From the NCBI RefSeq assembly GCF_002571225.1, contig NZ_NVEC01000047.1, positions 1 to 44,989 on the forward strand: 44,989 nt of DNA, in the 5' to 3' direction. Each line of letters begins with the position of its first letter. Within the stretch, counting starts at the first letter, position 1. Positions 26,177-44,989 of this stretch are shown here, piece by piece. The position numbers were made by a program, and so were the translations under genes. Source of the stretch: Bacillus sp. AFS059628 (GTDB lineage: Bacteria > Bacillota > Bacilli > Bacillales > Bacillaceae_G). A model generated the notes under the pieces. The model saw only the letters and a program-made list of their open reading frames with translations, did no database searches and was not told the DNA's origin.

Positions 26177-26692
26177 TTAAAGTGGCCCACCTTCAAAACC
26201 AATAGGCCATCCATCGTCTTTAAATTTTACTTTATACTGAAACTCAAAGTGACCATCATAAATAAAAGCTAAACTAAACCCAGAAAATATATAATTTTCA
26301 AAATTAACCATCTTCCCAAAACATATTGTGGATAGATAGTAGTTCTTCATTTCTTGATTAGGGAAGAATTTCTGTAAATATTTTAATGCACAGCTTATAT
26401 ATAGATGGAGTTCATCGAATGTTTTTTCTGACATTTCGATAATCTCCACATCGGGATTTTCATTATTCCCTTGAATAATAATATCCACATCTTCCCATTC
26501 TCCGATATTAATACTATAAAACCACCGTTTTTGAATGAGGTAATTCTCATTTTCGTATACAGGGGGATTAACTAGGTTTAATTTTTTCACCTCATCTTTA
26601 GTTAACGGTTTATCAAGAATAAGCTTTTTATGCAAAATTTCTTTGATATTAGAGACAATATATTTAGATTTGTTTAATTCTAAAGAGTCCAT
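26177..26692 (-). CDS. Unknown cargo protein of the inverted-repeat cassette, about 171 aa
   Basis: ATG 26692 (MDSLELNKSKYIVSNIKEIL) is chosen because GAGGTGG lies just upstream; longer readings up to 26746 would start in sequence without a ribosome binding site. The protein is soluble and slightly acidic. Its end, FEFQYKVKFKDDGWPIGFEG, with IYDGHFEF before it, resembles small DUF2004/DUF2262-type proteins, some of which act as immunity proteins of polymorphic toxins. This is a weak resemblance. No partner toxin is in the cassette. The gene is the only cargo between the inverted repeats. Confidence 0.6.
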   Translation of the reverse strand: MDSLELNKSKYIVSNIKEILHKKLILDKPLTKDEVKKLNLVNPPVYENENYLIQKRWFYSINIGEWEDVDIIIQGNNENPDVEIIEMSEKTFDELHLYISCALKYLQKFFPNQEMKNYYLSTICFGKMVNFENYIFSGFSLAFIYDGHFEFQYKVKFKDDGWPIGFEGGPL

Positions 26693-26746
26693 TTTCCACC
26701 TCATAAATAATAAATAAAGTAAATTCCCCCTTAAGTATATCATCAT

Positions 26747-27077
26747 CCTTATTCAACTATCCTGCACCGTTAGTTCAATAAGAATTAAACAACTTTATTG
26801 TAAATTAAACAACTCTATTCACATAAATTTCTTTATAAGCAAGGCTATATTCTTTGTCTGCATATACATATGATTTACAAATCCCTTCTTAATGCCGCAG
26901 TAATCTAGATACATTACTGCTTACCGCTCTTCATTTCAAGCATTAAGATATAACTCCCTTTCAAGCCTGCAACCTTTAGTTTTAAGAGGTCACTAATACA
27001 TAAACCTATATTGTATAACTACTTTACTACATTATTTGGGACAAATTTTAATTTAAACCCTATATTATCTATATTTA
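26747..27077. other. Gene-free junction between the cassette and the bac genes
   Basis: It holds the right cassette end (26763-26800), a short minus-strand relic reading YADKEYSLAYKEIYVNRVV that runs into the repeat (about 26806-26890), and a CAGTAAT/ATTACTG hairpin near 26904-26925. No transporter gene is present, although BcrABC would be expected beside bacRS. Confidence 0.55.
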
Positions 27078-28100
27078 TTAAACCTTTTCTGTTTTTGGAA
27101 AAGAGATACCAAAAACTGTTTTATTCCATGGACTACTTTCAACCCATATCCTGCCCTGGTTTTTTTCTACTAAGGATTTAGCAATAGCAAGCCCTAATCC
27201 GCTACCTCCATTAATAGAATTTCTTGATTGGTCACCACGATACATTCGTTCAAATACATGATCTAAATCATGTTCCGCGATTCCCTGTCCTTTATCCCAA
27301 ACAAGCAATTGGAATTCTTGATTTGATTCCATGAGTTCTATTCCAAGTACTTTTCCTTCTTTCCCATATAAAATAGCATTTTTTATTAGGTTATCTATAA
27401 TTCTTATAATACTTAGATAATCAGCCGTGATAAAACATTTTGTTTTTGGTAAACTAAGCTTTAACTCCAAATTATTCTTCTTGATTTCAGGCAAATGCTC
27501 AATTAATACTTCTCTGGTAATTTCAGTTAACTCTAGAGATTCAGGATTTATTAAAACTTCATCTGCATCTAGCTTTGCCATATTAAATATTTCATTGATT
27601 AATTGCTTTAAGTTGCTGGATTTTTTTGAAATAATTTCAAGATACTCTTTTTTCTCTTCTCGAGAAACAGCTATATCATCTTTTAAAGCATCAATATATC
27701 CTATAATAGATGTAAGAGGAGTTCTGATATCATGAGAAATACTTGATAAGAGCCTTTTTCTCGCATTTTGAGCTTTAATGGATTCGATTTGAACTCTCTC
27801 TAACTGTTCAATTAATTCATTCACAGAAAATATCATTTTATTAAATACATTATCTTCATTTACAATTAACCTTGTTGTTAAATTCCCTTTAATTACACGT
27901 TGTAACTCCTCAATCATTATTTTCAAACGATTAACGAAGTGAAACCTTATAAGTAAGAGAAAAGTCGTAAAGAAAAATAGTACTATGTACAAAACAAGTT
28001 TATTTATTCCTAATAGCTGATTATTTAAATCTGTAAAAAAAAGTCCTATAATACATAATAATTGAAGAATATTAAGTAAGATAATTTTATCGCTATACAT
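27078..28100 (-). CDS. bacS: BacS-like sensor histidine kinase, 340 aa
   Basis: Two N-terminal transmembrane helices (ILLNILQLLCIIGLFFTDL and LVLYIVLFFFTTFLLLI) are separated by only about ten residues, so there is no extracellular sensor domain, an intramembrane-sensing layout. A HAMP-like linker follows. The H-box is SSISHDIRTPLTSIIGYIDA, the N-box LIKNAILYG, G1 WDKGQGIAEHD, the F-box VFERMYRGD and G2 GGSGLGLAIAKS. ATG 28100 overlaps the stop of the response regulator (ATGTATAG), with AGGTG upstream, so the pair is translationally coupled. In bacitracin producers bacRS lies directly downstream of bacC and controls the BcrABC exporter; the position here is the same. The symbol rests on that context. 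Confidence 0.82.
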   Translation of the reverse strand: MYSDKIILLNILQLLCIIGLFFTDLNNQLLGINKLVLYIVLFFFTTFLLLIRFHFVNRLKIMIEELQRVIKGNLTTRLIVNEDNVFNKMIFSVNELIEQLERVQIESIKAQNARKRLLSSISHDIRTPLTSIIGYIDALKDDIAVSREEKKEYLEIISKKSSNLKQLINEIFNMAKLDADEVLINPESLELTEITREVLIEHLPEIKKNNLELKLSLPKTKCFITADYLSIIRIIDNLIKNAILYGKEGKVLGIELMESNQEFQLLVWDKGQGIAEHDLDHVFERMYRGDQSRNSINGGSGLGLAIAKSLVEKNQGRIWVESSPWNKTVFGISFPKTEKV

Positions 28101-28803
28101 TTTGGTCACCTACAAACTTATATCCTATTCCCCAAACTGTTTGTATTAATTGAGGATTAGAGGGATCCACTTCTATTTTTTTTCTAAGTTTTCGAATATG
28201 GACCATGACAGTATTATCATCTTCTAAATAGTTGTCCCCCCAAACATTACGGAACAACTGAGATTTTGTAAACACTTGCTCCGGATTTGAAGCAAAAAAC
28301 CTTAGTAGTTCCATCTCTTTTGCAGTTAAAGGAATCTCTTCCCCCTCTTTGAAAACAGTATATTTTTTCATATCAATTGAGATTTCTTTAAACTCTATAC
28401 GTGTTTGTTCTCCATCCCCTGCTTCACTTCCTAAAACTAAAAATCTCCTCATAAGAGCTTTAACTCTAGCCACTACCTCATTTATACTAAAAGGTTTTGT
28501 AATATAATCATCTGCGCCCATACTTAAACCTAATATCTTATCAGTTTCATGATTTTTAGCAGTGAGCATTAGAATAGGAACATTCGTTTTTTCTCTTAAT
28601 TTTCTGCAGACCTCAATCCCATCAATTTTTGGCATCATAAGATCTAATATAAACAGATCATATTTGTTTTTATTAAATAACGAAAGAGCGTGCTCGCCAT
28701 CTATAGCAACATCAACCTTATATAATTCTCGCTCCATATATTTTTTTAATAAATCTCTAATTTCTTTTTCATCATCTGCTATAAGAATTTTAATTTCTCG
28801 CAA
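28093..28803 (-). CDS. bacR: BacR-like OmpR-family response regulator, 236 aa
   Basis: The receiver domain has ILIADDEKEIR (acid pocket), the phosphoacceptor Asp in LFILDLMMPK, the switch Thr in ILMLTAKN, and Lys in ADDYITKPFS. The winged-helix DNA-binding domain has FTKSQLFRNVWGDNY and VMVHIRKLRKKIE. I prefer TTG 28803 (LREIKILIADDE), which has AGGTG upstream; ATG 28821 would lie only about 9 nt from the putative -10 box. It follows the NRPS gene after a strong terminator, so it has its own promoter. It should be phosphorylated by the coupled kinase and regulate bacitracin resistance or export genes; no target gene is in this window. Confidence 0.82.
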   Translation of the reverse strand: MREIKILIADDEKEIRDLLKKYMERELYKVDVAIDGEHALSLFNKNKYDLFILDLMMPKIDGIEVCRKLREKTNVPILMLTAKNHETDKILGLSMGADDYITKPFSINEVVARVKALMRRFLVLGSEAGDGEQTRIEFKEISIDMKKYTVFKEGEEIPLTAKEMELLRFFASNPEQVFTKSQLFRNVWGDNYLEDDNTVMVHIRKLRKKIEVDPSNPQLIQTVWGIGYKFVGDQNV

Positions 28804-28828
28804 AATAACACCTGCTTTCATAATTTCT

Positions 28829-28928: not shown

Positions 28929-31900
28929 TTAAACTGTTTCAAACGCCAATATGTCGTTTATTATATTAGCATTCTTTTTAAGAATATCTAGCTTTGAATT
29001 TGATAACATTTCCATATGGGTTCCGTACCCTTGAATTATCCTGAAATTCTTCGTAGTAGCATTCTCCCACAGTAAATTATTTTCATCTTCTTTTTCTTTT
29101 ACTGATTTTATATAACTTATATTTCCATCAATACTGCCATTTGTTGTTGTACTCTGTACATACATATAAGACTTCATAATTAATTCTATCAAATAATCAC
29201 TAGCTAATTTTTCTAAATCTTTATATTTTTTCAGATTGAATTTTTCATGAAGTTCTCTCTTACACTCTTCCTCTGTATAAAGATTCTGTTCTACAATCGT
29301 ACGGTATTTTGAATCAATAAGAATAAGATTTTCTACTTCAAAACCTTGTCTATTCAATTCTTTTGCCACATCGAATGCAAGAATTCCACCAGCTGAATAT
29401 CCCACTAATGTGTATGGTCCTTCTGATTGAATATCTTTTATTATTTTAACATATTGTGCAATTCTATTTTCAGATTTAATAAAATTAAAACTGTAAACCG
29501 AATATGACTCAATATGCTTTGCTAACCCCATATATGCTATTCCTATTGAAGCAGCAGGTGGGAAACAAAATAGTTTTTTATTGGTGCTTGTTGAGCTACT
29601 AAGTTGAATACAATCCTCTGTATAATCCTTTAACATTTCTTTTGCACCTTCTAAGAACGCTGAAAAACTTCGGACTGTAGGTTTATCAAATACATCTTTA
29701 AACGGTACTCTAAAGTTTAACTCTGCAACTATCCTTGAAACAAATGTCATAACGTTTAAAGAGTTCGCTCCGATATCAAATAAATTAGTATTCATACCTA
29801 TTTTTTTGATATTTAAAATCTCTTCCCATATGCTAACAATTTTTTCTTCTAAATCATTTCTTGGCGGTTCGTATTCTAATTCATATTTGACATTTCCATC
29901 TGGTGCTGGTAATGAATTTATATCTATTTTACCATTTGTTGTCAACGGTAATTCCTTAAGCTGTGTAAAAAATGCCGGTATCATATAATTTGGAAGTTCT
30001 TTTGATAAATATCTTCGCATCTCTGTAACAGTAATTGCTTTTTCTTTATTCTCTAAAACAACATATGCACAAAGATACTGACTATTCTCACCGTCTATTC
30101 TTGCAACAACTTTTGTTTCTTTTATATTATCTAATTTTAGAATTTGATTCTCTATTTCTCCTAATTCAATTCTATAACCACGAATTTTTACTTGATGGTC
30201 AGTTCTCCCTATAAATTCGATATTTCCACTAGGCAACCATCTTGCAAGATCCCCTGTTCGATACATCTTTGCTCCAGGTACATATGGATTTGATATAAAT
30301 TTTTCTGCTGTCAATTCAGGTCTATTTAAATAACCTGTAGCAACACCATCTCCACTTATATAAAGTTCTCCTTCTATTCCTACTGGTAATATCTTTTGAT
30401 TATCATCCAATATATAAATTTGAACATTATCAATTGGCTTCCCAATAGGTACCGATATGTGTTTATCGTCATTAAGGCTATATTTATAAATCATACAGCC
30501 AATTGTTGTTTCTGTCGGACCATACTCATTATAGATTTCAATATTATGATTGAAACTTTTTGAAATTTCTCTTGCTAACTCAGTCTTTAAATCTTCTCCA
30601 CCCACTATTAATCGTTTTATACTTGAATTGCAGTTATCAATATCTCTTATCAACCTTAAATGGGATGGTGTCAATTTTACTATACCTACTCTATTATCCT
30701 TAAAGATTTTTCTTATAATTGGTTCATCCCCATCATTATTGTAAATAACTATTTTATTTCCAGAAATTAATGGTGTGAATAATGATGTAATTGTAAGGTC
30801 AAATGAGAAAGATGAATACAAGGCAAAATCTAAGGCCTCTCCTTTGACATATTCCTTATTTGCCCATGTTATATAATTGACTAGGCCTCGTTGCTTCAGC
30901 ATAGTTCCCTTTGGCATACCTGTAGAACCCGAAGTATAAATCATATAAGCTAGATTGTTAGTATTACTTGTTACTTTTATATTTTCAGTAGAATAATGAT
31001 TATACTCTTCATCTAAAAATACTATTTCTTTGCTTAACCTCACTGCATCTTTACCTTTTGTAAGTATTATATTTGTTCCACTATCCTCTACTATATACTT
31101 AATTCGCTCTTCAGGATATTCAGGATCTATTGGTAAATATGCTGCTCCAGATTTTAAAATCCCCATAATTCCTATAATCATCTCTAGAGAACGTTCAAGC
31201 ATGATACCTACAACTGTGTCTGGTTGAACTCCTTTATTCTGGAGTATCCTAGCTATTTGGTTAGATTTTTCATTAAGTTCTTTATAAGTAAGTTGCTGCT
31301 TATCAAATACCACAGCTACCTTATTTGGAGTCCGTTCTACCTGTTCTTCAAATAAGCGATGAATTGTTTTTTCTTTTGGATACTCTGCCTTTGTTTCATT
31401 AAACTCATTCAAGAAATAATGCTTTTCTTCTTTTGAAAGGATTTCTAATTGATTCACATTTTTATGTTCATCCTGCACAACTTGGTCTATAACATTTTTC
31501 AGATGATTTGCTATGTTCTGGATGAGTTTTTCTGAATAGAGATTTCCATCATATGATATTTTGAGAACAAGCTGTTCACCAGGAACGACAACTATTGTAA
31601 ATCCATAGTTGGTTTGTTCAATCCCTTTAATATCCTTAAACACGAAACTACTCTTACTTTCTTCTTCCTGAAGTAAACGTTCATCAAGTGCATAATTCTC
31701 AAAAATCATTACATGATCAATTAAATCCCTTTTCAAATCACTAAGAGACTGTATATCTGAAAGATTCATATAGTTGTATGCTTGGCTTTCTATTGCTTGT
31801 TGCTGTACCTCTTTTAAAATATTTTTAAAGCTCTTCTGTTCTTTTATATTAATTCTCGTTGGAATTGCATTAATGAATAATCCAACCATTTTTTCAATTC

Positions 31901-32745
31901 CAGCTACTTTGGCATCTCTACCAGAAACGACAGAACCAAATACAACATCGTCTGTATGATTATACTTGGCTAAAATAATCCCCCATAAAGTTTGTAGCAC
32001 AGTGTTTAACGTAACATTATTTTGATTAGCCAATTCAGTCATTTTTTTCGTAAATTCCCTTGAAAATTCAATGAGCGTCTCTTGTCCATGGTACTCTCTT
32101 GTACTATCAATTTTGAACGATGGAACTTTCGCAGGTTTTTGATATCCTGCTAAATATTGTTTCCAATATTGAATTCCCTCTTCTTTTTCCTGTTCTCCTA
32201 ACCATCTAATATAATCACTATATGGTCTTGGCTCTTCTAAATTAGGATACTGTCCTACTTGTTTGTTTCCATAGATATGGAACAATTCTCCCAAAATAAT
32301 ACCTCTGCCCCATCCATCGAACAAGATGTGATGATTACTCCATATAATTGTATAAGCCTTATCATCAGTTTGAATAAGTTCCAGTCTAATTAAGACATCT
32401 TTACTAAAATCAAAACCTTTTTCTCGATCTTGTTCAATGTAGGTTGTTATACTTTCTTTTTGCTGATCTATTCCTTGCTGTCTAATATCTCGGTATCTAA
32501 AGCCAATCTTTCGACCTTTTATAATTACATTTTTTGGTTTTTCTGTAATTTCATATTCAATTGCTGTCCGAAGGATTTCATGTCTTTTCATAATATCGTT
32601 CAAGCTTTCCTCGAATAAATTGACATCAATAAACCCTTTGACATCAATGACAAGTTGTTCAAAGTATGCACCTGATTGTGGATCTTCTAATGCATGGAAT
32701 AGCATACCCTGCTGCATATTAGCTAATGGATAAATCTTTTCTATT
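28929..32745 (-). other. NRPS module 12: C-A-T-TE, Asn and cyclising thioesterase
   Basis: The C domain has NHHILFDGWG near 32325. The A pocket reads D-L-T-K-I-G-E-I-G (FDLTITS, VKLTP, LIVGGE, NEYGPTETTIG), an Asn code. The carrier is DIGANSLNVM near 29765. The thioesterase shows Ser in GYSAGG (near 29390), a candidate Asp in LILIDSK and His in YGTHMEML, the triad that in bacitracin closes the ring between the Lys6 side chain and Asn12. Confidence 0.85.
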
Positions 32746-35700
32746 TCTCCCCACCTATTTTTCGCCTTGATTTCCTCTAGTTGTTCGAAGCTTAATTCTT
32801 TGTCTCCGTAGTCAAATGGTGTTTTTTCAGCCTGTTCCTTAGAAATGCAATGATGGATTACATCACGAAGAGCAGCCTTGAAAGCTTCTGTAAACTCCAC
32901 TACGACATCCTCTGCATATACTTTTGTATTATAAGTCGTATCAATAGTGAGCTTTCCATCTAAGACAATAGCATTCATTTCTATAGGTGTTTCTCTTGTA
33001 TGTTTACCCCCAATCGACTCTCCTGCCGATATCCAAGAAGAAGAAAAGATTGTATTATTGAGATCTGCATCCATTTGACCTAAGTAATTAAACAGAATAG
33101 GTGGCTGTTCAATATTCCATAAATCTGAATCTCCACTCAATTGTTTTAAAACCCCATAGCCTATTCCCTTATTCGGAATTCTTCTAAGAGACTCTTTCAC
33201 TGTTTTAATAGTCATTGAAAGGTCCTTTTCATCTCCTAAATTGATGTATACAGGATATTTGGTTGTAAACCATCCAACTGTTCGGCTAATATCTACATTT
33301 TTTATAATCCGTTCTCTACCATGGCCCTCTAGACTAATCCTAATTTTATTTTCACCAGTTACTCTCCTTGTAGCTATTAAAAGAGCACTAATCAGTAAAT
33401 CATTGATTTCAGTATGATATGCTTGATTTGTTTCTCTTAACAATCGGCTTGTTTCCTCTATTCCGAGAGCGGTACTAAAAGTATCACTATCCTCATATCG
33501 GAATAGTCCAACTTCCTCTTTTTTCTCTAAAAAGTTAACATTATCCTTTAATGTGTTCACCCAATATTGCTTTTCTCTAAGGATTTTTGCACTCTTAGCA
33601 TACTCGTTGAGCTGAGTAGCATACTCTTTATAAGAAGTCGTTTTTGGATAAAACGCTATTGGTTCGCCTTTCATTAGCTGGCTGTATCCAAGTGCAAAAT
33701 CTTCAAATAGGATTCTCCAAGAGATTCCATCCACCACAAGGTGATGAATAATAAGTAACAGATGGTCTCCAACATTCGTCTTAAACTGTGCTACATTTAC
33801 AAGAGGTCCTTCTTGTATATCAATTTTCTTCTGTAATATTGTCGCAAGTTCTTGAATTTTCACATCTGGATTATCTTCTCTCGAAACGTCATAAACATAA
33901 AAACCAAATTGATTCTTTTCCACTTCTCGATTAAATTGAAGTACTTCATTATTCTCCTCTTTATAAATCATTCGTAAAGCATCATGATGTACAAAAATTG
34001 CTTCCATAACTTCTTGTATCATTTCCTCTCGGAATCCATCTTTCCTATACAACATAACTGCATGATTATAATGATTTACATCTTCTTTTCCATTCATAAA
34101 ATACGCTTTTTGGATTGGAGTGAGCAACACATCTCCTGTTTCAATTTCATAAGAGCCTTCTTGTATGGTCTCAATATTGACATAGTTGCTTAAAAACTTG
34201 ATTTCCGGATAGGTAAATAGATCTTTCATCTCTAACGTGATACCTTCTCGTGATAAACGTGAGATAATTTGTAAAGCTTTAATAGAATCTCCACCCGAAG
34301 CAAAAAAGTTATGGCTAATCCCAATTGGCTTGACTCCTAATATATCTTCCCATACCTTCACAAGTCTTTCTTCTACCTGATTTCTTGGTTTTTCATAATC
34401 TACTCCCTTACTCACATCAGGCTCTGGTAAGGCTTTTTCGTCTATTTTTCCATTTGCCGTAAGTGGAATACGCTCCATCTGAACAAAATAAGATGGAATC
34501 ATGTATTCAGGGATTTCTACTTTTAAGTACGCTCTTAATTCTTCAAATGATAGGTCCCTCTGGGACGTAATATATGCACATAGATATCTTCTTCCGTCCT
34601 GACCTTCTCGGTCAATCACGAATGCTTCTTTAATTTGTTCGTGTTTAACTAAATGACGCTTAATCTCTTCTGTTTCAATTCGATAACCTCTTATTTTCAC
34701 TTGACCGTCAATCCTACCTGCAAGCTCAATTCTACCATCTGATAGTCTTCGAGCAAGATCCCCTGTCCGATACATTTTTTTATTTGGTTCAAACGGATTT
34801 TGAACAAATTTTTCTTCTGTCAAATCTGCTCTGTTTAAATATCCACTTGCTACGCCATCTCCTGATAAGCATAATTCACCATAAACACCTTCTGGGACAA
34901 GTTTCATTTGTTGATCCACTACGTAAGCCTTCATATTCTGAATTGGTCTTCCAATCACAGGGCATTCTTTGAAAGCTACCATTGTATCATAGTCAATAAC
35001 TTGATATACCGAACCAATTGTCGCCTCTGTAGGTCCATAGTGATTCATTACCGCATGATTTGGGTAATGTGTATAGAATGTTTCAACATCTATTGGATTG
35101 ATTTTCTCTCCACCTAACACGACTAATCTCAAAGTTTTACAGCTCTGATTATTTGAGAAACTCGGATCATTCACCAAGACGTTAAAGAGAGACGGTGTTA
35201 ATTTCAAATAAGAAATCCCTTGTTCTTCTATATACTGTAATGCTTTCTGAGCATTAGTATATACTTCTTTTGTAACGAGATGCAGTTCACATCCATTTAA
35301 AAGTGATGAATATAGACTTGTATAGCCCAAGTCAAATGCATAGGAAGATACTAACATTGCCTTATCTGTTTCTTTTAGATTCGCTTCCTTTGTAAACCAA
35401 GTCATGTAGTTTACAACGTTGTTGTGCTGAACACATACACCTTTAGGTGTACCAGTCGAACCTGATGTATAGATGATATACGCATTATGATTCCATTTAT
35501 AATTGACTAATAAATTTGATGTATCCCTCTCTTTTATAGAATCATCTTCCATGGAGATTACTTCTCCATTAAATTGGAGAGTTTCTTTCCTTTCTCCTTT
35601 TACTATCAATAGGCTAGCATTACTGTCCTTTAAAATGACATTCGTTCTTTTATCCAGTTGTTCAGGATCTATTGGTAAGTAAGTAGCTCCTGCTTTTAAT

Positions 35701-38700
35701 ACGGCCATAATTCCAATAATCATTTCAAGAGATTCTTCCACTAACATACCTACTGTTATCCCTGGCTTTGCTCCTTTTTCTTGAAGCAACCTTGCCATTT
35801 GATTCGCTCTTTCATTCAGTTCCAGATACGTAAGTTTCTGATTTTTAAATACCACGGCTACATGGTGAGGTGTTCGTTTCACCTGTTCCTCAAATAATTG
35901 TGAAATTGTTTTATCTTTCGGATAATCAGCTTTTGTATCTTTATCATCCTGCAATAGCATCTGCACTTCTTCTTCTGAAAGCAACATAATATCCTGAATG
36001 CTTTGTTCTGGCTTCTCAATAATTTCTTTAAAAACCTGGATTAAATGTTTAGCTAATCTTTCTACAGTTTCCTTCTTAAATAATTTAGTTCTGTAATTTA
36101 ATACACATGTGATACTACGCTCTTCTTCAACAGCGGTAAGTGTTAAATCAAATTTAGAAACATGCGCCTTCATTTGATATGGTGAGAAAGTTAAACCTTG
36201 TATTTCAAAATCATCATAGTCAAAGTTTTGTAAGACGAGCATTGTATCAAACAAAGCACTTCTGCTCATATCTCTCTTTAAATCTAATTTTTCAACTAAT
36301 TCATCAAATGGATAATCCTGATTTTCATAGGCTTTTAAAGCATTCTCTTTAACTTCTTTTAAATAATCCTGGAATGAAACGTCTCGTTTTGGATAATTTC
36401 TCATTGCAAGAGTATTAACAAAAATACCCATAATCTGTTTCAAATCATCATGAGGTCTTCCTGCGATTGGAGATCCCACTACGATTTCCTCTTGCCCCGT
36501 ATATTTTGAAAGTAAAGTTGTATATCCAGCTAACAGAAGCATATACAGCGTCACACCATGTTCCTTCGCCATCTTCTTAAGATTAACATATATGTCACTA
36601 TCGATTTCAAAATGTACAAGGTCACCTTCTGTACTTTGAATTGGCGGTCTTTTATAATCTGTCGGCATATTTAGTACTGGTACTTCTTCTTTAAATACAT
36701 GCATCCAATACTCTTCTTGTTTTTTCATTTCTTCTTGAGTAAACAATTCTCTTTGCCATACAGAATAATCCTTATATTGAATGCTTAATGGAGATAATTC
36801 TTTCCCGTTGTATAACTCAGCTAATTCCTGTGTAAAGATCCCCATTGATACACCATCTGATATGATATGGTGCATATCTAATACAATCACGTGCTCATCA
36901 TCTGTAACATGTATGATTTCAACCCGTAAAAGAGGAGCCTTCTCCAAATCAAACGGTTTAACAAATCCATTGATCATATCATCTAGCTTATTGGTACCCA
37001 TTTCTCTATACGTCACTTGGAAATCTATGTCTTTTTCAATCTTTTGAACTGGTTCACCATCTACCATTACAAAAGAAGTTCTTAAAGCTTCATGTCTTTC
37101 GATTAATTTATGGAAAGCCTTCTCAAGTTGCTGAACATCCAAATCACCTTTTATCTTCATGGCGAACGGTATATTGTAAGATACTCCGCTACCCTCTATT
37201 TTGTTTAAAATATAGAGTCTTTTTTGTGCAGATGAAAGTGGATAATAATCTTGTTCTTCTACTTTTTTGATGGATGCATATACACTTTCTTTTGTAGAGT
37301 CAATAAATTCTCCAATCCCTTTTATAGTAGGTGTTTGGAAGATTTGTCGTAAAGGTATCTCCACCATAAGTTCCTTATGGATTTTAGAAACCATCGTAGT
37401 TGCTTTAAGAGAATGACCTCCTATTTCAAAAAAATGCTGGTTGATACCGATTTTTTCTACTCCTAAAATTTCCTGCCAAATGGATACAAGTCTTTCTTCG
37501 ACTTCATTCCTTGGTGCCTCATACTCTACTCCCACAACTGCACTTTCATCAGGTTCTGGTAAGGCCTTTCGGTCCACTTTTCCATTTGCTGTAAGTGGTA
37601 GTTTATCCAACTGAACGAAAAACGCAGGAATCATATACTCTGGAAGCTCTTGCGCCAAATCCTTCCGAATTTCTTGTAATTTAGATTCTTTCTTACGTGT
37701 TTCAGACGTAAAATAAGCACATAAATATGGTTGACCATTATTATCCTCTCTTGCGATGACAACGGCTTCTTTAATCTCTTTCTGTTTCAAAAGTTGATTC
37801 TCTACCTCACCAAGTTCAATCCTGAAACCTCGAATTTTCACTTGATGGTCAATTCTACCTAAAAATTCGATATTCCCATTAGGCAATAACCTTGCAAGAT
37901 CTCCTGTCCGGTACATCCTTTCCCCTGGAATGAATGGATTTGGAACAAACTTCTCCGCTGTGAGCTCTGGTCTGTTTAAATAACCACGTGCCAAACCTTC
38001 CCCACTTACACAAAGTTCACCTGCAACTCCTAATGGCACTAAATTATTTTCCATATCAAGGATATAAACCCTGTTATTACTTATTGGTTTACCAATAAGT
38101 ACCTTCTGATCTTCCTGTTTTAATTCACATATTGTAGAACAAACACTATTTTCTGTTGGACCATATTCATTAAACAATTTTACGTGAGGCATTTTCTGAA
38201 AATGTTTTGTAATTAGATTTTCATTAAAACCTTCACCTGCAATTGTCACAAATCTCAAATCTACTAAAGGCTTATCAATAGTGTTTAATAGATTATTATA
38301 ATAACTTGGAACAGCTAACAAATTAGTTACTTTATTATTTTGAATAATATTTATAAATTTACTGAAATTCATTCTTATATCTTCTATTAAAATTAATTTA
38401 CCTCCAGAAAGCAAAGTAGTAAAAATATCTTCAACAGAGCTGTCAAAAGAGAAAGAAGGCATCTGTAACGTAATATCACTTTCACTATATTGATATGATT
38501 CTATTCTCCAACATAACGTATTGAGAATAGATTTATGATTCACCATAACACCCTTTGGTTTTCCAGTTGAACCTGAAGTGTATATTATATAAGCCATGTC
38601 AGAGGACTTATTTAGACTAGGCAAGTTTTCTGTAAATCTATCCTTAATCTTTTGTACATTTATATCAATACAAGTTAAATCATAATCTACATGTTTATTT

Positions 38701-41700
38701 TCTTGTTTTAACAATATTTCTATACCACTGTCTTCTAACATATATCTTCTTCTATCCTCTGGATACTCAGGATCAATTGGAAGGTATGCTCCCCCGGCTT
38801 TTAATATCGCCATCATACCAACTATCATTTCAATCGAACGTTCAACCATAATACCAACCACAGTATTAGATTTCACACCTTTTTCTCTTAGCAGAGCAGC
38901 GACTTGATTAGATTTTTCGTTAAGTTCCCAATAAGTCAATTGTTTATTTTCAAACACAACTGCAATATTTTCAGGTGTCCTTTCTACCTGTTCTTGGAAC
39001 AATTGATGGATCGTCTTCTCTTTTGGGTAATCTACTTTTGTATCATTAAATTCATACAATAAAGTTGTTCTTTCTTCTTCTGCAATTATGTCTATTTCAT
39101 TTATTTTCTTATTCTCATCTGCAATCACTTGTTCAGTTACTTTTTTAATGTGCATTTCGATATTATCTATTATTTTGTCATCATAAATATTGCCATCATA
39201 AGTTAAAACTAAATTTAACTTCTCACCTGGAGTTGCAGCAATACTAAAACTATAATTGCTCTGCTCTTCTGCATGTATATCTTCTACCTCAAAACCTATA
39301 TCCATTTTTTCATTTCCGGCAATACGTTTATCAACAGCATAGTTCTCAAACACAATTATATGATCAATAAGATCATTCTTTAATTTACTCATTGCTTGAA
39401 CTTCAGCTAAATTCATATAGTTATAATTATTGCTAGCTATAGCTTCACTCTGTACAACCGTTAAAACCTCTTTAAACTTCTGATTCTTTCCAAGATTTAT
39501 TCTAGTTGGAATGGCATTAATAAATAAACCAATCATCTTTTCAATTCCGTCTACTGGTGCTTCCCTTCCCGATACAATAGTTCCAAATACTACTTCGTCT
39601 GTATTGTTATACTTCGCCAAAATAATACCCCAAATACTCTGGAATACTGTATTAAAGGTTACGCTATTCCTATTAGCAAGCTGTGTAATCTTATTTGTTA
39701 GTTCGTTCGAAAATTCAATTACTTTTTCTCTTCTTAAATACTCACTATTATTCTTAGTAATCTGTAATTTTGGTATTTGCGCTTTCTCTTCATAACCATC
39801 TAAATATTGCTCCCAATAACTTTTACCTTCTTCTTTATCTTGCTCTTCCAGCCATTTTATATAATCGCTATAAGGTTTCGTTTCTTCTAACTCATATTCT
39901 TCACCATTTATTAATTTTCCATATACAGTGAATAACTCACCTAATACGATGCCAAGACACCAACCGTCCAATAAAATATGGTGATGACTCCATACCAATT
40001 TATATAAGTTTTCATCTGTTCTAATCAAACATACTCTCATTAAAGTATCTTTACTTAAGTTAAATCCCTTTTCTGTATCTTCTTCTCTATAATTTTTTAT
40101 GAATAACTCTTTTTCTATAGTTCCTCTTTCACTTATATCGCAATATTGAAAACCTATTTCTCTATCCGCTATTATTATTTGTCTAGGCTCCTCAACTATT
40201 TCATATTCAAATGATGCTCTTAGTATTTCGTATCTTTGCATGATTTTATTAAAACTTGTTTTTAATATCTCTACATCAATGTATCCTGTTATATCCATGA
40301 CAGTTTGTTCAAAATATGCTTTTGAATTTTTGTTTTCCAAAGCATGGAACAGCATTCCCTTTTGCATATTTGCTAACGGGTAAATCTTTTCAATTTCAAA
40401 ATCTTTATACTTCTCTTTAATATCCTTAAGTTCACTTAGAGTTAATTTAGTATCCCCATAGTCATAAGGCGTCTTTTCCACCTCTATTTGACTAACACAA
40501 TGATCAATTATAGTTTCAAGACTTTCTTTAAACTTATCATTTAATTTCCTGATTGTTAGTTCATCAAACTCTAGCTCATTAAAGGTAGTATTTATAACCA
40601 ATTCATTATTAATAATTATCGAATTGATTTCTATCGAATTATTTCTTGAAATCTTTCCTCCAATTGTTTCCCCATAAGAAAATTTTGATTCAGAAAATTC
40701 ATTTCTGTTAACATCATTATCCATTTCACCTAAATAGTTAAATGAAATTGGTGCTTTTTGTTCATTTAATAGATACTTCTCTTTTGATAAATATTTTAGT
40801 ATACCAAATCCGATTCCCTTGTTAGGAATTTTCCTTAAAATTTCTTTTACCATTTTTATATTAGTAGCAAGATCGGTCTCATTGCCTAAATCTATAAGTA
40901 CTGGATACATAGTTGTAAACCAACCTACAGTCCTACTAATATCTACATTTTCTAAGATATCTTCTCTTCCATGTCCCTCCATATTTATTTTTATACAATT
41001 TTCACTTGTTATCTCTCTAGCACCTAATAATAAGGAAGTTAACAATATGTCATTTATTTCTGTATTGTATGCTCTATTGGATTTTCTTAATAAACTTATA
41101 GTCTTTTCCTTATTTAAAGAAATACTAACTGTTTTACTATTTTCGAATGTGTCACTTTTGAGCTCTTTTTTTCTAGGTATAAATGCAACTTCAGTATTTG
41201 CTATCTCTTGCCAATACTCTTTTTCCTTTAATAATTTATTGCTACTAGCATACTCCCTCAGCTTAGAGGAAAATTCTTTAAAGGATTCAGTTTTGAATCC
41301 AACGTTTAACTTCTCACCTCTTAAATCCTGAGAATATAGAGTTTCAAAATCTTCTAATATTATTCTCCATGATACTCCATCTACTACAAGATGATGAATG
41401 GTAATAAGCAGATGATCACCTTGATTCGTTTTAAATAAACAAAGATTAACAAGTTTACCATTTTTGATGGAAGATTTCTTTTGGATATTTGTCGCTAATT
41501 CATATATTTTCTCTTCCTTATTCTCTACTCCCTCAACATCATGAACGTATAAATCAAAGAGGTTATCCTTATAGCCTCTATTATACTGAATGATCTTTCC
41601 ATCATTTTCTCTATAAATCATTCTAAGGGCATCATGTTGCTCTAATATCTTATTAAAGACTCTCTCTATTCTCTTTTGATCAAATCCATCTTCCCTAAAT

Positions 41701-44700
41701 AGCATAAATGATTGATTAAAATGATCTAGTTCTTCTTTATTTTTCTCAAAATACCATTTTTGAATTGGAGATAATATTACTTCTCCTGTAACTATTTCAT
41801 AAGGTTTTAACCGTTTGTTTTGCTTTTTTACATACTTACTAAGATCTTTAATTTTAGGGTTTGCAAATAGATCTTTCACTTCTAACTTAAGATTTATTCT
41901 AGACAACCTGGACACAATTTGCAGAGCCTTAATAGAATCCCCACCTGATACAAAGAAATGATGATTTATCCCTATATCCTCTATGCCTAGGATATCCCTC
42001 CAAATCTCAACAAGATGTGTTTCAACTTCATTTCTTGGTGCCTCATATTCTACCCCTGATTGACTACTTCTATCTGGTTCTGGAAGTGCTTTTCGATCCA
42101 CTTTATCGTTTGATGTAAGTGGTAACTGGTCAAGTTGAACAAAATAAGAGGGAATCATGTAATCAGGGAGTTCCTTTTCTAAAAATTCTCTTATCTTGGC
42201 TGAAGATATTGCTTTTTCAGACACAATATAAGCACTTAGATACGTATGATTTTCCTTATCCTCTTTTGCTACTACTACGACCTCTTTTATATCTTGATGT
42301 TTTAACAACTGGATCTCTATTTCACCAAGTTCTATTCTATACCCACGTATTTTTACTTGATGGTCAATTCTTCCTATGAATTCAACATTTCCATCAGGCA
42401 TCCATCTTACAAGATCACCTGTACGATACATTTTTTCCCCACTGACGAAAGGATTTTCCACAAATTTCTCGGCAGTTAAAGCTGGATTATTTAAATAACC
42501 TCTTGCCAATCCAACTCCAGATATACATAACTCTCCTGTTACTCCAATTGGACAAAGCTGATTATACTTATTAACTATATAAACTTTAGTATTATACACC
42601 GGTTTTCCAATTGGAATATTATCATCATTTTTATTCATTAAGAAACTTGTAGTTACTACTGTATTTTCGGTTGGACCGTAGGCATTTACAAGCTGATAGC
42701 GGGTATTCTTATTTAAAATTAACTTTTCGCCACCGGATACTAACATTCTTAAAGAATGATTATCTTGTAATATAAATTGTTCACTTACCTTAGATGGGAA
42801 TGTTGCAACTGTTATGTCTTTACTATTCATATATTCATTTAATTTATCTAGATCAAGCCTAATATCTTTGCCTAAAACATGCAAAGTAGCTCCGGTGATT
42901 AAGCAAGGGAAAATTTCTCCAATAGATGCATCAAATGAGACTTTCAAATAGTTTGTAATTCGATCTCTTTCTGTTATTTTATGAAAATCTACATACCAAT
43001 TACATAAATTGACTAAGGAATGATGTTCCACTAACACCCCTTTTGGTAAACCCGTGGAACCAGACGTATAAATGACATAGGCTAAATCATTTCTATTATT
43101 ACGCCTTTCCATATTAATTTGCTCTTGATTTTTTATTGTTTCATCATCAATTGAGATTTTAGTTATACATTCATTATTGATAAAATGAAGTTTATCGTAT
43201 AAATGAGTCTGCGTTAATACGAACTTTGTGTTACTATCTTCTACCATATATTTAATTCGCTCTTCAGGATATTCAGGGTCTATTGGTAAATACGCTGCCC
43301 CTGATTTTAATATCCCCATGATACCGACAATCATATCTAAAGAACGTTCCACCATAATTCCTACAATCATTTCTGGATGAACATCCTTATCATAAAGTAA
43401 TCTAGCTACTTGATTGGATTTTTCATTGAGCTCCTTATAAGTAACTTGTTGCCCCTCAAATTCTACGGCAACCTTGTTTGGAGTTCTCTCTACCTGCTCC
43501 TCAAATAATTGATAAATGGTTTTATTCTTTGGATAATCTATATCAGTTTCATTAAATTTATTCAAAAGAATGTGCTTTTCTTCTCCCGAAAGCATATCTA
43601 TTTGACCTAAACAAACTTCCAGATTATTAGTAATTTCTCTTAAAATACTAACAAAGTGCTCTGATATTTTAGCTATTGTCTCTTTCTTAAACAATTTTGT
43701 ACAATATTCTAAATCAAATTTTATGATGTTATTAGTTTCTACTGCTGATAATGTCAAATCAAAATTTGCTATATTAAGTTCACTATCATATGTTTCAAAA
43801 CTTAACCCTTTAATCTCTTCATTAGAGGTATCTAAGTTTTGTAGCACAAACATCGTATCAAATAATGCACTTCTACTCATATCTCTTTGTAAGTCCAGCT
43901 TTTCAACCAATTCATCCAAAGGATAATCTTGATTTTCATAAGCCTTTAATGCATTTTCTTTTACTTCTCTTAAATAATTACGAAATGTTTTATCTTCATT
44001 TGGATAATTTCTCATCGCAAGGGTATTCACAAACATTCCGACAATATTTTCAAAATCATGATGGCCTCTTCCTGCAATTGGAGATCCTACCACAATATCA
44101 TCTTGACCCGTATATCTTGAAAGTAAAGTTGTATATCCAGCTAACAGAAGCATATACATGGTAACCCCATTTTCTTTTGCAATTCTATTAAGCTTCTTTG
44201 TCAACTCACTATCTATTTCAAAACTTCTTCGGGCCCCTTCAACACTTTGTGTCGGCGGCCTTTTATAATCTGTTGGCATATTTAAAATAGGTACTTCTTC
44301 TTTAAAAACATTTATCCAATATTCTTCTTGCTTCTTCATTTCCTCTTGAGTAAACAAGTCTTTTTGCCATACTGCATAATCTTTATACTGTAGGTCCAAT
44401 GGGGATAACTCTTTCCCTTCATACAGTTTACAGAGCTCTCTATTTAAAATGTTCATTGAAACTCCATCTGAAATGATATGATGCATATCTAATACCACCA
44501 CGTGCTCATCATCTGTAACATGTATGATTTCAACCCGTAAAAGAGGAGCTTTCTCCAAATCAAATGGTTTAACAAATCCATTAATCATATCATCTAGCTT
44601 ATTGGTACCCATTTCTCTATACGTCACTTGGAAATCTATCTCTTTTTCAATCTTTTGAACTGGTTCACCATCTACCATTACGAAAGAAGTTCTTAAAGCC

Positions 44701-44989
44701 TCATGTCTTTCGATTAGTTTATAGAATGCATTCTCAAGCTGATGAACATCCAAATCACCTTTTATTTTCATAGCGAAAGGCATATTATAAGATACTCCGC
44801 TACCCTCTATTTTGTTTAAAATGTAGAGTCTTCTTTGGGCAGATGAGAGCGGATAATAATCCTGTTCTTCTACTTTTTTGATCGATGCATATACACTTTC
44901 TTTCGTAGAGTCAATATATTCTCCAATTCCTTTTATAGTAGGTGTTTGGAAGATTTGTCGTAAAGGTAGCTCCACCATAAGTTCCTTAT
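28929..44989 (-). CDS. bacC: Bacitracin-type NRPS BacC, 5' end outside the window
   Basis: Multimodular peptide synthetase, more than 5,350 residues here; the frame is open to the window edge, entering inside a carrier domain. Domain order is (T) - C-A-T-E - C-A-T - C-A-T-E - C-A-T-TE. Each C domain has an HHxxxDG site (MHHIISDGVS or HHHILLDGW-type), the four A domains have YTSGSTG and GPTE cores, carriers have GGDSIKA, GGHSLKA, GGDSIKA and DIGANSLN, and both E domains have HHLVVDG-SWR. The TE has GYSAGGILAFD. A-pocket residues indicate His, Asp and Asn for the last three modules. That is the end of bacitracin (D-Phe9-His10-D-Asp11-Asn12), and BacC carries residues 8-12. The missing part, about 1,000 residues, would be the Ile8 module. 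Modules 9 and 11 are followed by C domains of the D-C-L class (YPLANMQ... start). A terminator follows, then bacRS-like genes. Confidence 0.88.
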   Translation of the reverse strand, partial: KELMVELPLRQIFQTPTIKGIGEYIDSTKESVYASIKKVEEQDYYPLSSAQRRLYILNKIEGSGVSYNMPFAMKIKGDLDVHQLENAFYKLIERHEALRTSFVMVDGEPVQKIEKEIDFQVTYREMGTNKLDDMINGFVKPFDLEKAPLLRVEIIHVTDDEHVVVLDMHHIISDGVSMNILNRELCKLYEGKELSPLDLQYKDYAVWQKDLFTQEEMKKQEEYWINVFKEEVPILNMPTDYKRPPTQSVEGARRSFEIDSELTKKLNRIAKENGVTMYMLLLAGYTTLLSRYTGQDDIVVGSPIAGRGHHDFENIVGMFVNTLAMRNYPNEDKTFRNYLREVKENALKAYENQDYPLDELVEKLDLQRDMSRSALFDTMFVLQNLDTSNEEIKGLSFETYDSELNIANFDLTLSAVETNNIIKFDLEYCTKLFKKETIAKISEHFVSILREITNNLEVCLGQIDMLSGEEKHILLNKFNETDIDYPKNKTIYQLFEEQVERTPNKVAVEFEGQQVTYKELNEKSNQVARLLYDKDVHPEMIVGIMVERSLDMIVGIMGILKSGAAYLPIDPEYPEERIKYMVEDSNTKFVLTQTHLYDKLHFINNECITKISIDDETIKNQEQINMERRNNRNDLAYVIYTSGSTGLPKGVLVEHHSLVNLCNWYVDFHKITERDRITNYLKVSFDASIGEIFPCLITGATLHVLGKDIRLDLDKLNEYMNSKDITVATFPSKVSEQFILQDNHSLRMLVSGGEKLILNKNTRYQLVNAYGPTENTVVTTSFLMNKNDDNIPIGKPVYNTKVYIVNKYNQLCPIGVTGELCISGVGLARGYLNNPALTAEKFVENPFVSGEKMYRTGDLVRWMPDGNVEFIGRIDHQVKIRGYRIELGEIEIQLLKHQDIKEVVVVAKEDKENHTYLSAYIVSEKAISSAKIREFLEKELPDYMIPSYFVQLDQLPLTSNDKVDRKALPEPDRSSQSGVEYEAPRNEVETHLVEIWRDILGIEDIGINHHFFVSGGDSIKALQIVSRLSRINLKLEVKDLFANPKIKDLSKYVKKQNKRLKPYEIVTGEVILSPIQKWYFEKNKEELDHFNQSFMLFREDGFDQKRIERVFNKILEQHDALRMIYRENDGKIIQYNRGYKDNLFDLYVHDVEGVENKEEKIYELATNIQKKSSIKNGKLVNLCLFKTNQGDHLLITIHHLVVDGVSWRIILEDFETLYSQDLRGEKLNVGFKTESFKEFSSKLREYASSNKLLKEKEYWQEIANTEVAFIPRKKELKSDTFENSKTVSISLNKEKTISLLRKSNRAYNTEINDILLTSLLLGAREITSENCIKINMEGHGREDILENVDISRTVGWFTTMYPVLIDLGNETDLATNIKMVKEILRKIPNKGIGFGILKYLSKEKYLLNEQKAPISFNYLGEMDNDVNRNEFSESKFSYGETIGGKISRNNSIEINSIIINNELVINTTFNELEFDELTIRKLNDKFKESLETIIDHCVSQIEVEKTPYDYGDTKLTLSELKDIKEKYKDFEIEKIYPLANMQKGMLFHALENKNSKAYFEQTVMDITGYIDVEILKTSFNKIMQRYEILRASFEYEIVEEPRQIIIADREIGFQYCDISERGTIEKELFIKNYREEDTEKGFNLSKDTLMRVCLIRTDENLYKLVWSHHHILLDGWCLGIVLGELFTVYGKLINGEEYELEETKPYSDYIKWLEEQDKEEGKSYWEQYLDGYEEKAQIPKLQITKNNSEYLRREKVIEFSNELTNKITQLANRNSVTFNTVFQSIWGIILAKYNNTDEVVFGTIVSGREAPVDGIEKMIGLFINAIPTRINLGKNQKFKEVLTVVQSEAIASNNYNYMNLAEVQAMSKLKNDLIDHIIVFENYAVDKRIAGNEKMDIGFEVEDIHAEEQSNYSFSIAATPGEKLNLVLTYDGNIYDDKIIDNIEMHIKKVTEQVIADENKKINEIDIIAEEERTTLLYEFNDTKVDYPKEKTIHQLFQEQVERTPENIAVVFENKQLTYWELNEKSNQVAALLREKGVKSNTVVGIMVERSIEMIVGMMAILKAGGAYLPIDPEYPEDRRRYMLEDSGIEILLKQENKHVDYDLTCIDINVQKIKDRFTENLPSLNKSSDMAYIIYTSGSTGKPKGVMVNHKSILNTLCWRIESYQYSESDITLQMPSFSFDSSVEDIFTTLLSGGKLILIEDIRMNFSKFINIIQNNKVTNLLAVPSYYNNLLNTIDKPLVDLRFVTIAGEGFNENLITKHFQKMPHVKLFNEYGPTENSVCSTICELKQEDQKVLIGKPISNNRVYILDMENNLVPLGVAGELCVSGEGLARGYLNRPELTAEKFVPNPFIPGERMYRTGDLARLLPNGNIEFLGRIDHQVKIRGFRIELGEVENQLLKQKEIKEAVVIAREDNNGQPYLCAYFTSETRKKESKLQEIRKDLAQELPEYMIPAFFVQLDKLPLTANGKVDRKALPEPDESAVVGVEYEAPRNEVEERLVSIWQEILGVEKIGINQHFFEIGGHSLKATTMVSKIHKELMVEIPLRQIFQTPTIKGIGEFIDSTKESVYASIKKVEEQDYYPLSSAQKRLYILNKIEGSGVSYNIPFAMKIKGDLDVQQLEKAFHKLIERHEALRTSFVMVDGEPVQKIEKDIDFQVTYREMGTNKLDDMINGFVKPFDLEKAPLLRVEIIHVTDDEHVIVLDMHHIISDGVSMGIFTQELAELYNGKELSPLSIQYKDYSVWQRELFTQEEMKKQEEYWMHVFKEEVPVLNMPTDYKRPPIQSTEGDLVHFEIDSDIYVNLKKMAKEHGVTLYMLLLAGYTTLLSKYTGQEEIVVGSPIAGRPHDDLKQIMGIFVNTLAMRNYPKRDVSFQDYLKEVKENALKAYENQDYPFDELVEKLDLKRDMSRSALFDTMLVLQNFDYDDFEIQGLTFSPYQMKAHVSKFDLTLTAVEEERSITCVLNYRTKLFKKETVERLAKHLIQVFKEIIEKPEQSIQDIMLLSEEEVQMLLQDDKDTKADYPKDKTISQLFEEQVKRTPHHVAVVFKNQKLTYLELNERANQMARLLQEKGAKPGITVGMLVEESLEMIIGIMAVLKAGATYLPIDPEQLDKRTNVILKDSNASLLIVKGERKETLQFNGEVISMEDDSIKERDTSNLLVNYKWNHNAYIIYTSGSTGTPKGVCVQHNNVVNYMTWFTKEANLKETDKAMLVSSYAFDLGYTSLYSSLLNGCELHLVTKEVYTNAQKALQYIEEQGISYLKLTPSLFNVLVNDPSFSNNQSCKTLRLVVLGGEKINPIDVETFYTHYPNHAVMNHYGPTEATIGSVYQVIDYDTMVAFKECPVIGRPIQNMKAYVVDQQMKLVPEGVYGELCLSGDGVASGYLNRADLTEEKFVQNPFEPNKKMYRTGDLARRLSDGRIELAGRIDGQVKIRGYRIETEEIKRHLVKHEQIKEAFVIDREGQDGRRYLCAYITSQRDLSFEELRAYLKVEIPEYMIPSYFVQMERIPLTANGKIDEKALPEPDVSKGVDYEKPRNQVEERLVKVWEDILGVKPIGISHNFFASGGDSIKALQIISRLSREGITLEMKDLFTYPEIKFLSNYVNIETIQEGSYEIETGDVLLTPIQKAYFMNGKEDVNHYNHAVMLYRKDGFREEMIQEVMEAIFVHHDALRMIYKEENNEVLQFNREVEKNQFGFYVYDVSREDNPDVKIQELATILQKKIDIQEGPLVNVAQFKTNVGDHLLLIIHHLVVDGISWRILFEDFALGYSQLMKGEPIAFYPKTTSYKEYATQLNEYAKSAKILREKQYWVNTLKDNVNFLEKKEEVGLFRYEDSDTFSTALGIEETSRLLRETNQAYHTEINDLLISALLIATRRVTGENKIRISLEGHGRERIIKNVDISRTVGWFTTKYPVYINLGDEKDLSMTIKTVKESLRRIPNKGIGYGVLKQLSGDSDLWNIEQPPILFNYLGQMDADLNNTIFSSSWISAGESIGGKHTRETPIEMNAIVLDGKLTIDTTYNTKVYAEDVVVEFTEAFKAALRDVIHHCISKEQAEKTPFDYGDKELSFEQLEEIKAKNRWGEIEKIYPLANMQQGMLFHALEDPQSGAYFEQLVIDVKGFIDVNLFEESLNDIMKRHEILRTAIEYEITEKPKNVIIKGRKIGFRYRDIRQQGIDQQKESITTYIEQDREKGFDFSKDVLIRLELIQTDDKAYTIIWSNHHILFDGWGRGIILGELFHIYGNKQVGQYPNLEEPRPYSDYIRWLGEQEKEEGIQYWKQYLAGYQKPAKVPSFKIDSTREYHGQETLIEFSREFTKKMTELANQNNVTLNTVLQTLWGIILAKYNHTDDVVFGSVVSGRDAKVAGIEKMVGLFINAIPTRINIKEQKSFKNILKEVQQQAIESQAYNYMNLSDIQSLSDLKRDLIDHVMIFENYALDERLLQEEESKSSFVFKDIKGIEQTNYGFTIVVVPGEQLVLKISYDGNLYSEKLIQNIANHLKNVIDQVVQDEHKNVNQLEILSKEEKHYFLNEFNETKAEYPKEKTIHRLFEEQVERTPNKVAVVFDKQQLTYKELNEKSNQIARILQNKGVQPDTVVGIMLERSLEMIIGIMGILKSGAAYLPIDPEYPEERIKYIVEDSGTNIILTKGKDAVRLSKEIVFLDEEYNHYSTENIKVTSNTNNLAYMIYTSGSTGMPKGTMLKQRGLVNYITWANKEYVKGEALDFALYSSFSFDLTITSLFTPLISGNKIVIYNNDGDEPIIRKIFKDNRVGIVKLTPSHLRLIRDIDNCNSSIKRLIVGGEDLKTELAREISKSFNHNIEIYNEYGPTETTIGCMIYKYSLNDDKHISVPIGKPIDNVQIYILDDNQKILPVGIEGELYISGDGVATGYLNRPELTAEKFISNPYVPGAKMYRTGDLARWLPSGNIEFIGRTDHQVKIRGYRIELGEIENQILKLDNIKETKVVARIDGENSQYLCAYVVLENKEKAITVTEMRRYLSKELPNYMIPAFFTQLKELPLTTNGKIDINSLPAPDGNVKYELEYEPPRNDLEEKIVSIWEEILNIKKIGMNTNLFDIGANSLNVMTFVSRIVAELNFRVPFKDVFDKPTVRSFSAFLEGAKEMLKDYTEDCIQLSSSTSTNKKLFCFPPAASIGIAYMGLAKHIESYSVYSFNFIKSENRIAQYVKIIKDIQSEGPYTLVGYSAGGILAFDVAKELNRQGFEVENLILIDSKYRTIVEQNLYTEEECKRELHEKFNLKKYKDLEKLASDYLIELIMKSYMYVQSTTTNGSIDGNISYIKSVKEKEDENNLLWENATTKNFRIIQGYGTHMEMLSNSKLDILKKNANIINDILAFETV
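32745..37256 (-). other. NRPS module 11: C-A-T-E, D-Asp
   Basis: The A pocket reads D-L-T-K-V-G-H-I-G (FDLGYTS, LKLTP, VVLGGE, NHYGPTEATIG), the standard Asp code. Carrier GGDSIKAL near 34285 and epimerase with HHLVVDGISWRI near 33730. The C domain start (36840-37256) is almost identical in DNA to that of module 9. Confidence 0.85.
37290..40395 (-). other. NRPS module 10: C-A-T, His
   Basis: The C domain (HHHILLDGW near 39980) starts with IEKIYPLANMQKGM, the class that accepts a D-configured donor. The A pocket reads D-S-E-L-T-A-E-V-C (FDSSVED, NLLAVP, VTIAGE, NEYGPTENSVC), the code I recall for the His-activating domain of BacC. Carrier GGHSLKAT near 37410. No epimerase. Confidence 0.8.
40395..44870 (-). 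other. NRPS module 9: C-A-T-E, D-aromatic residue
   Basis: C domain about 43560-44870 (HHIISDG near 44470), A domain about 42090-43540, carrier about 41830-42040 and epimerase 40440-41790 (HHLVVDG near 41390). Pocket residues aligned to GrsA read D-A-G-T-V-G-A-V-V (FDASIG, ITVATFP, MLVSGG, NAYGPTENTVV). This is an aromatic-type pocket but without the large residue at position 239 seen in Phe-activating domains. A larger side chain such as Tyr or Trp is predicted, and the epimerase makes it D. Confidence 0.75.

Follow-up and report, generated by a model that had tools for sequence, protein, structure and literature searches.

The window is the whole stretch of DNA that was analysed, 44,989 nucleotides of Bacillus sp. 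AFS059628 (contig NZ_NVEC01000047.1). Much of it is taken up by one minus-strand reading frame (28932-44987), which stays open over 5352 residues and runs past the window end. Pfam places condensation, AMP-binding, carrier and thioesterase domains in this frame, and Pfam together with motif scans gives the encoded order (T8 tail)-C-A-T-E / C-A-T / C-A-T-E / C-A-T-TE (Table 1). The C/E, A3, T, A10 and TE motifs looked for are intact in every module where they are expected. The window encodes modules 9-12, the final four of a bacitracin-type synthetase, in the C-terminal arrangement of BacC, 9(E)-10-11(E)-12-TE, with C9-A9-T9-E9 spanning 40395-44870.

The bacitracin synthetase has 12 modules distributed over BacA, BacB and BacC; its product starts with Ile-Cys, and the thioesterase closes a ring from Lys6 to Asn12. 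Each module of the window synthetase would load one amino acid. Residues 10-12 would be His, D-Asp and Asn, matching bacitracin A, and module 9, given its E domain, is expected to flip residue 9 to the D form as well. The thioesterase would then release the peptide and probably close the ring. Release, cyclisation, enzyme activity and the existence of the product are all predictions from sequence. The synthetase found no DNA match among plasmids and no protein match among viral contigs.

Table 1. Features of the synthetase and of the regulatory pair behind it
Feature	Coordinates	Strand	Evidence
NRPS, C-terminal 5352 residues of a BacC-type subunit, gene start beyond the window	28932..44987	-	open frame, Pfam
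Carrier-domain tail, module 8 (limit by hand)	44898..44987	-	alignment to five BacC relatives
C domain, module 9; HHIISDG at 44463-44483	43566..44864	-	Pfam, motif
A domain, module 9, pocket DAGTVGAVV-K (limits by hand)	42063..43532	-	Pfam, alignment
Exchanged A-core block, module 9, residues 594-826, about A3 to A6	42510..43208	-	two-rate breakpoint fit, identities, trees
Stretch with pocket positions 235-331, module 9	42654..42932	-	hand count
T domain, module 9, GGDSI (limits by hand)	41808..42035	-	motif, Pfam
E domain, module 9; HHLVVDG at 41376-41396 (limits by hand)	40488..41795	-	Pfam Condensation family, motif
C domain, module 10 (limits by hand)	39093..40355	-	motif, Pfam
A domain, module 10, DSELTAEVC (His)	37548..39035	-	pocket alignment, identity to His10 domains
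T domain, module 10 (limits by hand)	37278..37520	-	motif
C and A domains, module 11, DLTKVGHIG (Asp)	34413..37256	-	Pfam, pocket alignment
T and E domains, module 11, D-Asp expected	32838..34400	-	motif, Pfam
C and A domains, module 12, DLTKIGEIG by hand (Asn)	29898..32705	-	Pfam, alignment
T domain and thioesterase, module 12; GYSAGG at 29385-29402	28932..29870	-	motif, Pfam
Response regulator, BacR-like by position	28093..28821	-	Pfam; regulator ORF behind BacC in relatives
Sensor histidine kinase, BacS-like by position	27078..28109	-	Pfam

Related clusters

Relatives were sought in 1718 genomes, overlapping between searches, the class-wide draws being samples. The centre of the Bacillus-group search, G167, was picked for three BslA-family matches. 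In its genus at least 5 of 44 genomes match the window His domain at E 1e-160, three by a His10 domain and two by other A domains. G771 (12 modules) and G780 (modules 9-12) combine Phe9 (DAFTVAAVC) with His10; G790 (12 modules; L076-L078) and G766 (modules 1-5 and 9-12, split over two contigs; L079-L080) combine the same Phe9 code with Thr10. G766 is very near the His10 cluster G771 on the backbone, with end branches of about 0.02, which implies that residue 10 changed recently.

With the module-9 A domain as query, at least 7 of 80 genomes in the G167 family match at E 1e-165, the best listed being modules 5 and 9 of G789 (68%). G789 (L056-L058) has 12 modules and His10; its modules 5 and 9 both read DATTIGACV, and its module 4 has an Asp code. 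Its A domains are 98.8% identical between modules 5 and 9 and 100% between modules 4 and 11, so copying inside the cluster is probable.

Of 394 genomes in the family that includes G002 (Paenibacillus taiwanensis), at least 16 match at E 1e-165. A DAST[VI]GAVV domain is present in 6 of those 16 listed: five in ORFs of 6388-6413 residues, about BacC length, and one in a cut ORF of 2053. Both G553 (L044-L046) and G503 read Ile-Cys-Leu-Glu-Ile-Lys-X7-Ile-X9-Thr-Asp-Asn, which is the order of paenitracin; X7 is DGITIGAVV in G553 (its last letter is unread in G503), and the module-8 code of G503 is DGFTLGVVF. The class-wide sample (at least 26 of 398 genomes at E 1e-158) added G104 (L099-L101), which reads X1(DAWLVGAIL)-Cys-Leu-Glu-Ile-Lys-X7(DVATEGAIW)-Ile-X9(DACTIGSVV)-Thr-Asp-Asn; its pockets at modules 1, 7 (with Glu in the pocket) and 9 are unusual. 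The window's module-9 pocket occurs in none of the 16 loci read of the 18 new in this sample. When the His domain was searched across the class at the strict limit of E 1e-170, with at most three candidates scored per listed genome, 0 of 398 genomes matched, a result of little weight. An extra HHLVVDG domain lies in the same place as E9 in G553, G503, G790, G766 and G104.

Positions 1, 4, 5, 7 and 10 are variable among these relatives. The mass shifts of +16 or +39 relative to known bacitracin that had been put forward for the product cannot be assumed, given this variation and the fact that modules 1-8 lie outside the window.

Regulatory genes and flanking DNA

The response regulator and sensor kinase lie behind the synthetase, where BacC-type clusters carry such a pair. 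In DNA the pair (27078-28821) is 70.9% identical to one on the Staphylococcus plasmid pLEW6932, where its neighbours are an undecaprenyl-diphosphate phosphatase and an ABC transporter, so that the whole resembles a bacitracin-resistance set. Among ORFs of at least 50 aa in 23380-27100, read by eye, no ABC transporter pair (bcrAB) follows the window kinase, and Pfam matched an ABC family in none of the 18 non-NRPS window ORFs searched. In G790, G104, G553 and G503 Pfam places an ABC ATPase with an ABC-2 permease at this site, preceded in G553 by a regulator and a kinase; in G771 and G780 the transporter is recognised from its first letters only.

A missing transporter at the place where relatives usually have one, together with plasmid-like flanking DNA, would suit a relic, an assembly line that is non-functional or makes nothing. 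This is a most improbable reading: all 5352 codons are open with the motifs looked for intact, immunity genes may sit upstream, and G789, with a 12-module set, likewise has no transporter behind its kinase among ORFs of at least 150 aa in 13 kb, by eye.

A 162-kb plasmid from Bacillaceae bacterium C02 (CP045534) matches pieces of window 3743-13054 at 91.9% DNA identity, and the best place on it covers 27% of a 24.9-kb query. The flanking DNA suggests that the antibiotic genes lie on or beside a plasmid or other mobile element. A group II intron reverse transcriptase-maturase with an HNH domain (5720-7528, minus strand) sits amid the plasmid-like genes. Between these and the antibiotic genes are a CFI-box protein (13855-15333), a berberine-bridge-type FAD enzyme (17794-19110) and a beta-propeller lectin (19789-20970; above its family cut-off, just below the CV39L one). 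Two Klebsiella-named records, CP079755 and NZ_CP031260, contain Gram-positive-like stretches, possibly through mixed samples or misassembly; the first matches 14% of the query at 96.9% identity and the second 35% at 70.9%.

Pockets of modules 10-12

Pocket letters were read by alignment to the GrsA Phe domain; residue names follow the usual specificity codes, save those tied to a compound. Module 10 reads DSELTAEVC and module 11 DLTKVGHIG. Module 12 is DLTKIGEIG by hand, the script having given DLTKIGEIC and then DLTTIGEIC owing to gap placement. These are read as His, Asp and Asn pockets, that is, the bacitracin end, and with the E domain of module 11 they bear out the His, D-Asp, Asn C-terminus claimed in the preliminary description.

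The His10, Asp11, Asn12 order is found also in G771 and G780. The His10 domains of G789, G780 and G771 share 69-72% identity with the window A10 domain, and the A10 blocks of G553 and G503 (Thr10) share 36.7-37.8% with the window block. In an A-core tree of 102 rows, window modules 10, 11 and 12 are placed with their bacitracin counterparts. Position 10 splits at 100/100 into His (window, G789, G780, G771) and Thr (G790, G766, G553, G503, G104), against the backbone.

The module-9 pocket

The module-9 pocket reads D-A-G-T-V-G-A-V-V plus K517, by alignment and a hand check of residues 686-778, the same letters as had been given before. The Phe9-type clusters, known from their genes alone, were searched for this pocket, and all four (G771, G780, G790 and G766) carry DAFTVAAVC, the Phe-type code that window module 9 lacks.

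Among 113 other A domains compared, five have 8 of the 9 pocket letters and one has 7; all six are module 9 of G503 and G553 or its counterparts in G264, G476, G032 and G529, the first two clusters having been read out module by module and the other four not. This resemblance is not chance. The window shares 8/9 letters with DASTVGAVV (G503) and 7/9 with DASTIGAVV. Position 239, G in the window and S in DASTVGAVV, is a main specificity position. Agreement is 6/9 with each of DAFTVAAVC (Phe), DALSVGEVV (bacillomycin module 2), DGITIGAVV (module 7) and the DATTIGACV of G789 module 9, and 5/9 with DAWFLGNVV (Leu3). Over 34 pocket-lining letters, modules 5 and 9 of G789 come first (30/34), with module 9 of G553 and G503 and L021 at 29/34; these matches and the nine-cluster trees below come from a round that scored 114 domains, G104 added. 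The best single-domain matches among solved structures are GrsA (527 bits), TycA (522) and LgrA module 1 (about 500), whose substrates are Phe, Phe and Val. In one genome-contig scan, A domains read from 10 loci (36-49% identity) included none with the window's pocket. Pocket strings used as literature search terms brought no match; ten-letter codes did bring matches.

An A-core block of different ancestry

A two-rate breakpoint fit over residues 41-1500 puts identity to G780 at 0.35 inside residues 594-826 and at 0.67 elsewhere. Its log-likelihood exceeds that of a single-rate fit by 39.7; the limits are the best among all segments tried, and the gain carries no p value. The block comprises 233 residues (window 42510-43208), roughly A3 to A6. 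Inside it the window is 35.2-38.2% identical to G780, G771, G790 and G766, 51.9-56.2% to G553, G503 and G104, and 66.1% to G789. In the flanks, C9 and T9-E9, the order is different: 60.3-69.6% to G780, G771, G790 and G766, 50.6-55.2% to G553 and G503, and 61.8-62.1% to G104. The G104 flanks are thus as near the window as those of some Phe9 clusters, so that the identity contrast is weaker there and the trees carry the point.

The block tree of nine clusters separates window, G789, G104, G553 and G503 from G771, G766, G780 and G790 at 100/100 (bootstrap/SH-aLRT). In the C9, T9-E9 and T10-TE trees, window and G789 instead join G771, G766, G780 and G790 (100/100, 100/99 and 100/100). In the 102-row A-core tree, window module 9 falls within a 15-member clade that also holds G789 and the paenitracin-type domains (support 99), adjoins Leu-type domains (98) and lies away from Phe domains. 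This tree was made by a quick method with SH-aLRT only, and its rows include 16 chosen loci from the searches in the G002 and G167 families plus L003; it leaves out the remaining loci of those searches, many of them repeats of cluster domains already included, A domains shorter than 440 residues and the BamA acyl-ligase domain. The AU test rejects a grouping of window module 9 with Phe domains (p 5e-42, on 55 of the 102 rows, with groups picked after the tree was seen). The pairing of window with G789 has a support of 82 in the A-core tree and is absent from the nine-cluster block tree, where the fork has 40/59.

The identity drop is sharp and confined to the A core, and trees inside and outside it conflict. 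The block joins paenitracin-type module 9 while its flanks join Bacillus-group synthetases, a clear case of A-core subdomain exchange at module 9.

Two other origins can be set aside. A Phe domain altered by point mutations is ruled out by the different ancestry of the block, and the idea that three substitutions enlarged the pocket is replaced by a block of 233 residues. Faster drift of the pocket region is ruled out by the comparison with G789, to which the window is 66% identical inside the block and 69% outside.

Substrate of module 9

The module-9 A core, whose ancestry differs from that of ordinary BacC, is most likely Trp-loading, and the synthetase would probably make a Trp9/His10 bacitracin congener. 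In paenitracin, MS and NMR place Trp at position 9, its D form being inferred there from the E domain, and the published structure has Leu at position 7 (PMC13011432). Since the module order of G553 and G503 is that of paenitracin, DAST[VI]GAVV can be paired with Trp; module order is what ties these two clusters to the paenitracin producer JJ-778, and the assignment goes back to one characterised compound. For the window, D-Trp is the best guess because its pocket agrees at 8/9 and its A core falls in the same clade as paenitracin-type module 9; Tyr, Phe and Leu are weaker. Of the D-Tyr or D-Trp suggested in the preliminary description, a large aromatic residue is probable, and Trp is favoured over Tyr.

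A D-Tyr9 bacitracin, through loading of Tyr alone or of Tyr along with Trp, is unlikely. A small residue at 239 together with Thr278 would make space for a para substituent, and engineered W239S Phe domains reportedly accept substituted Tyr. The only Tyr domain compared, bacillomycin module 2 (Tyr by the structure of the peptide), agrees at just 6/9 with Glu at 322, and its position in the 102-row tree is unsure (long-branch warning); the 8/9 domains of paenitracin type pair with a Trp peptide. Quite unlikely too is that module 9 still takes Phe in a differently shaped pocket, leaving position 9 ordinary. In one survey four identical codes were common to Phe and Trp domains (PMC12283262), Phe9 codes likewise share 6/9 letters, and the Phe domains GrsA and TycA are the best single-domain matches among solved structures. 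Against this, all four Phe9 relatives hold DAFTVAAVC and their A cores form a separate clade.

Leu or another aliphatic residue is very unlikely, even though the Leu-type (DAWFLGNVV) domains form the sister clade and the clade of window module 9 itself holds paenitracin-type module 7 (DGITIGAVV), which goes with Leu. The pocket agrees at only 6/9 with module 7 and 5/9 with Leu3, and Ala236 with a small residue at 239 follows the Trp9 pattern, unlike Gly236/Ile239. Modules 7 and 9 of G553 have A domains 95.8% identical though they are paired with Leu and Trp, which implies that few changes suffice to move the substrate; they are a natural near-minimal pair for specificity change.

Order of events in the family

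If the backbone is rooted there (the tree has no outgroup), the paenitracin-type clusters and G104 lie outside the Bacillus-group clusters. Because the paenitracin-type clusters, G104, window and G789 all carry a non-Phe core, the shortest account would have the Phe core enter once, in the lineage of the ordinary clusters. The deep branches have a non-Phe core too, so the Phe9 of textbook bacitracin may be the derived state. A tentative scenario, not far short of even in our judgement, is that the Trp9-type core is the older one, kept in the window strain, G789, G104 and the paenitracin type, that D-Phe9 came by a later single exchange, and that the strain makes a Trp9/His10 bacitracin. The core may also have been passed between lineages.

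Comparison with known systems and significance

BacC of G771 and G780 shares with the window modules 9-12 with TE, His10, Asp11, Asn12 and the regulator and kinase, at 62.1-63.4% overall identity; the window differs in the ancestry of its module-9 A core (35.2-38.2%) and in having no transporter behind its kinase. The paenitracin type (PMC13011432; G553, G503) has 7 or 8 of the 9 module-9 pocket letters and the same A-core clade, with an overall identity of 50.8-55.9% to G553 and G503 and Thr10 in place of His10. Plain membership of the paenitracin type is ruled out by His10. G789 is the closest overall among the clusters compared (68.6%), with His10 and a same-clade non-Phe module 9, and differs in its pocket, DATTIGACV against DAGTVGAVV.

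A-core exchange has been described for NRPS generally: a block with limits near A3 and A6 is swapped while C, A-sub and T are kept, as in the window; bacitracin is absent from the main texts of these papers (PMC8097286; PMC9205934). Known bacitracin congeners before paenitracin differed little, Ile sometimes being replaced by Val (PMC13011432), and two papers on new bacitracin-like peptides have Phe and His, and no Trp, in their main texts (PMC11350868, PMC8421597). Among the literature matches listed, from a search that left most subscription journals outside, paenitracin is the only Trp9 bacitracin and no Trp9/His10 bacitracin occurs. Trp9 alone has printed precedent; together with His10 it would be a new combination.

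Bacitracin is a drug in use, and a Trp9/His10 congener can be searched for directly. The clusters compared suggest that nature edits positions 9 and 10 of bacitracin by A-core block exchange, and such exchanges would represent naturally tested cut points for engineering.
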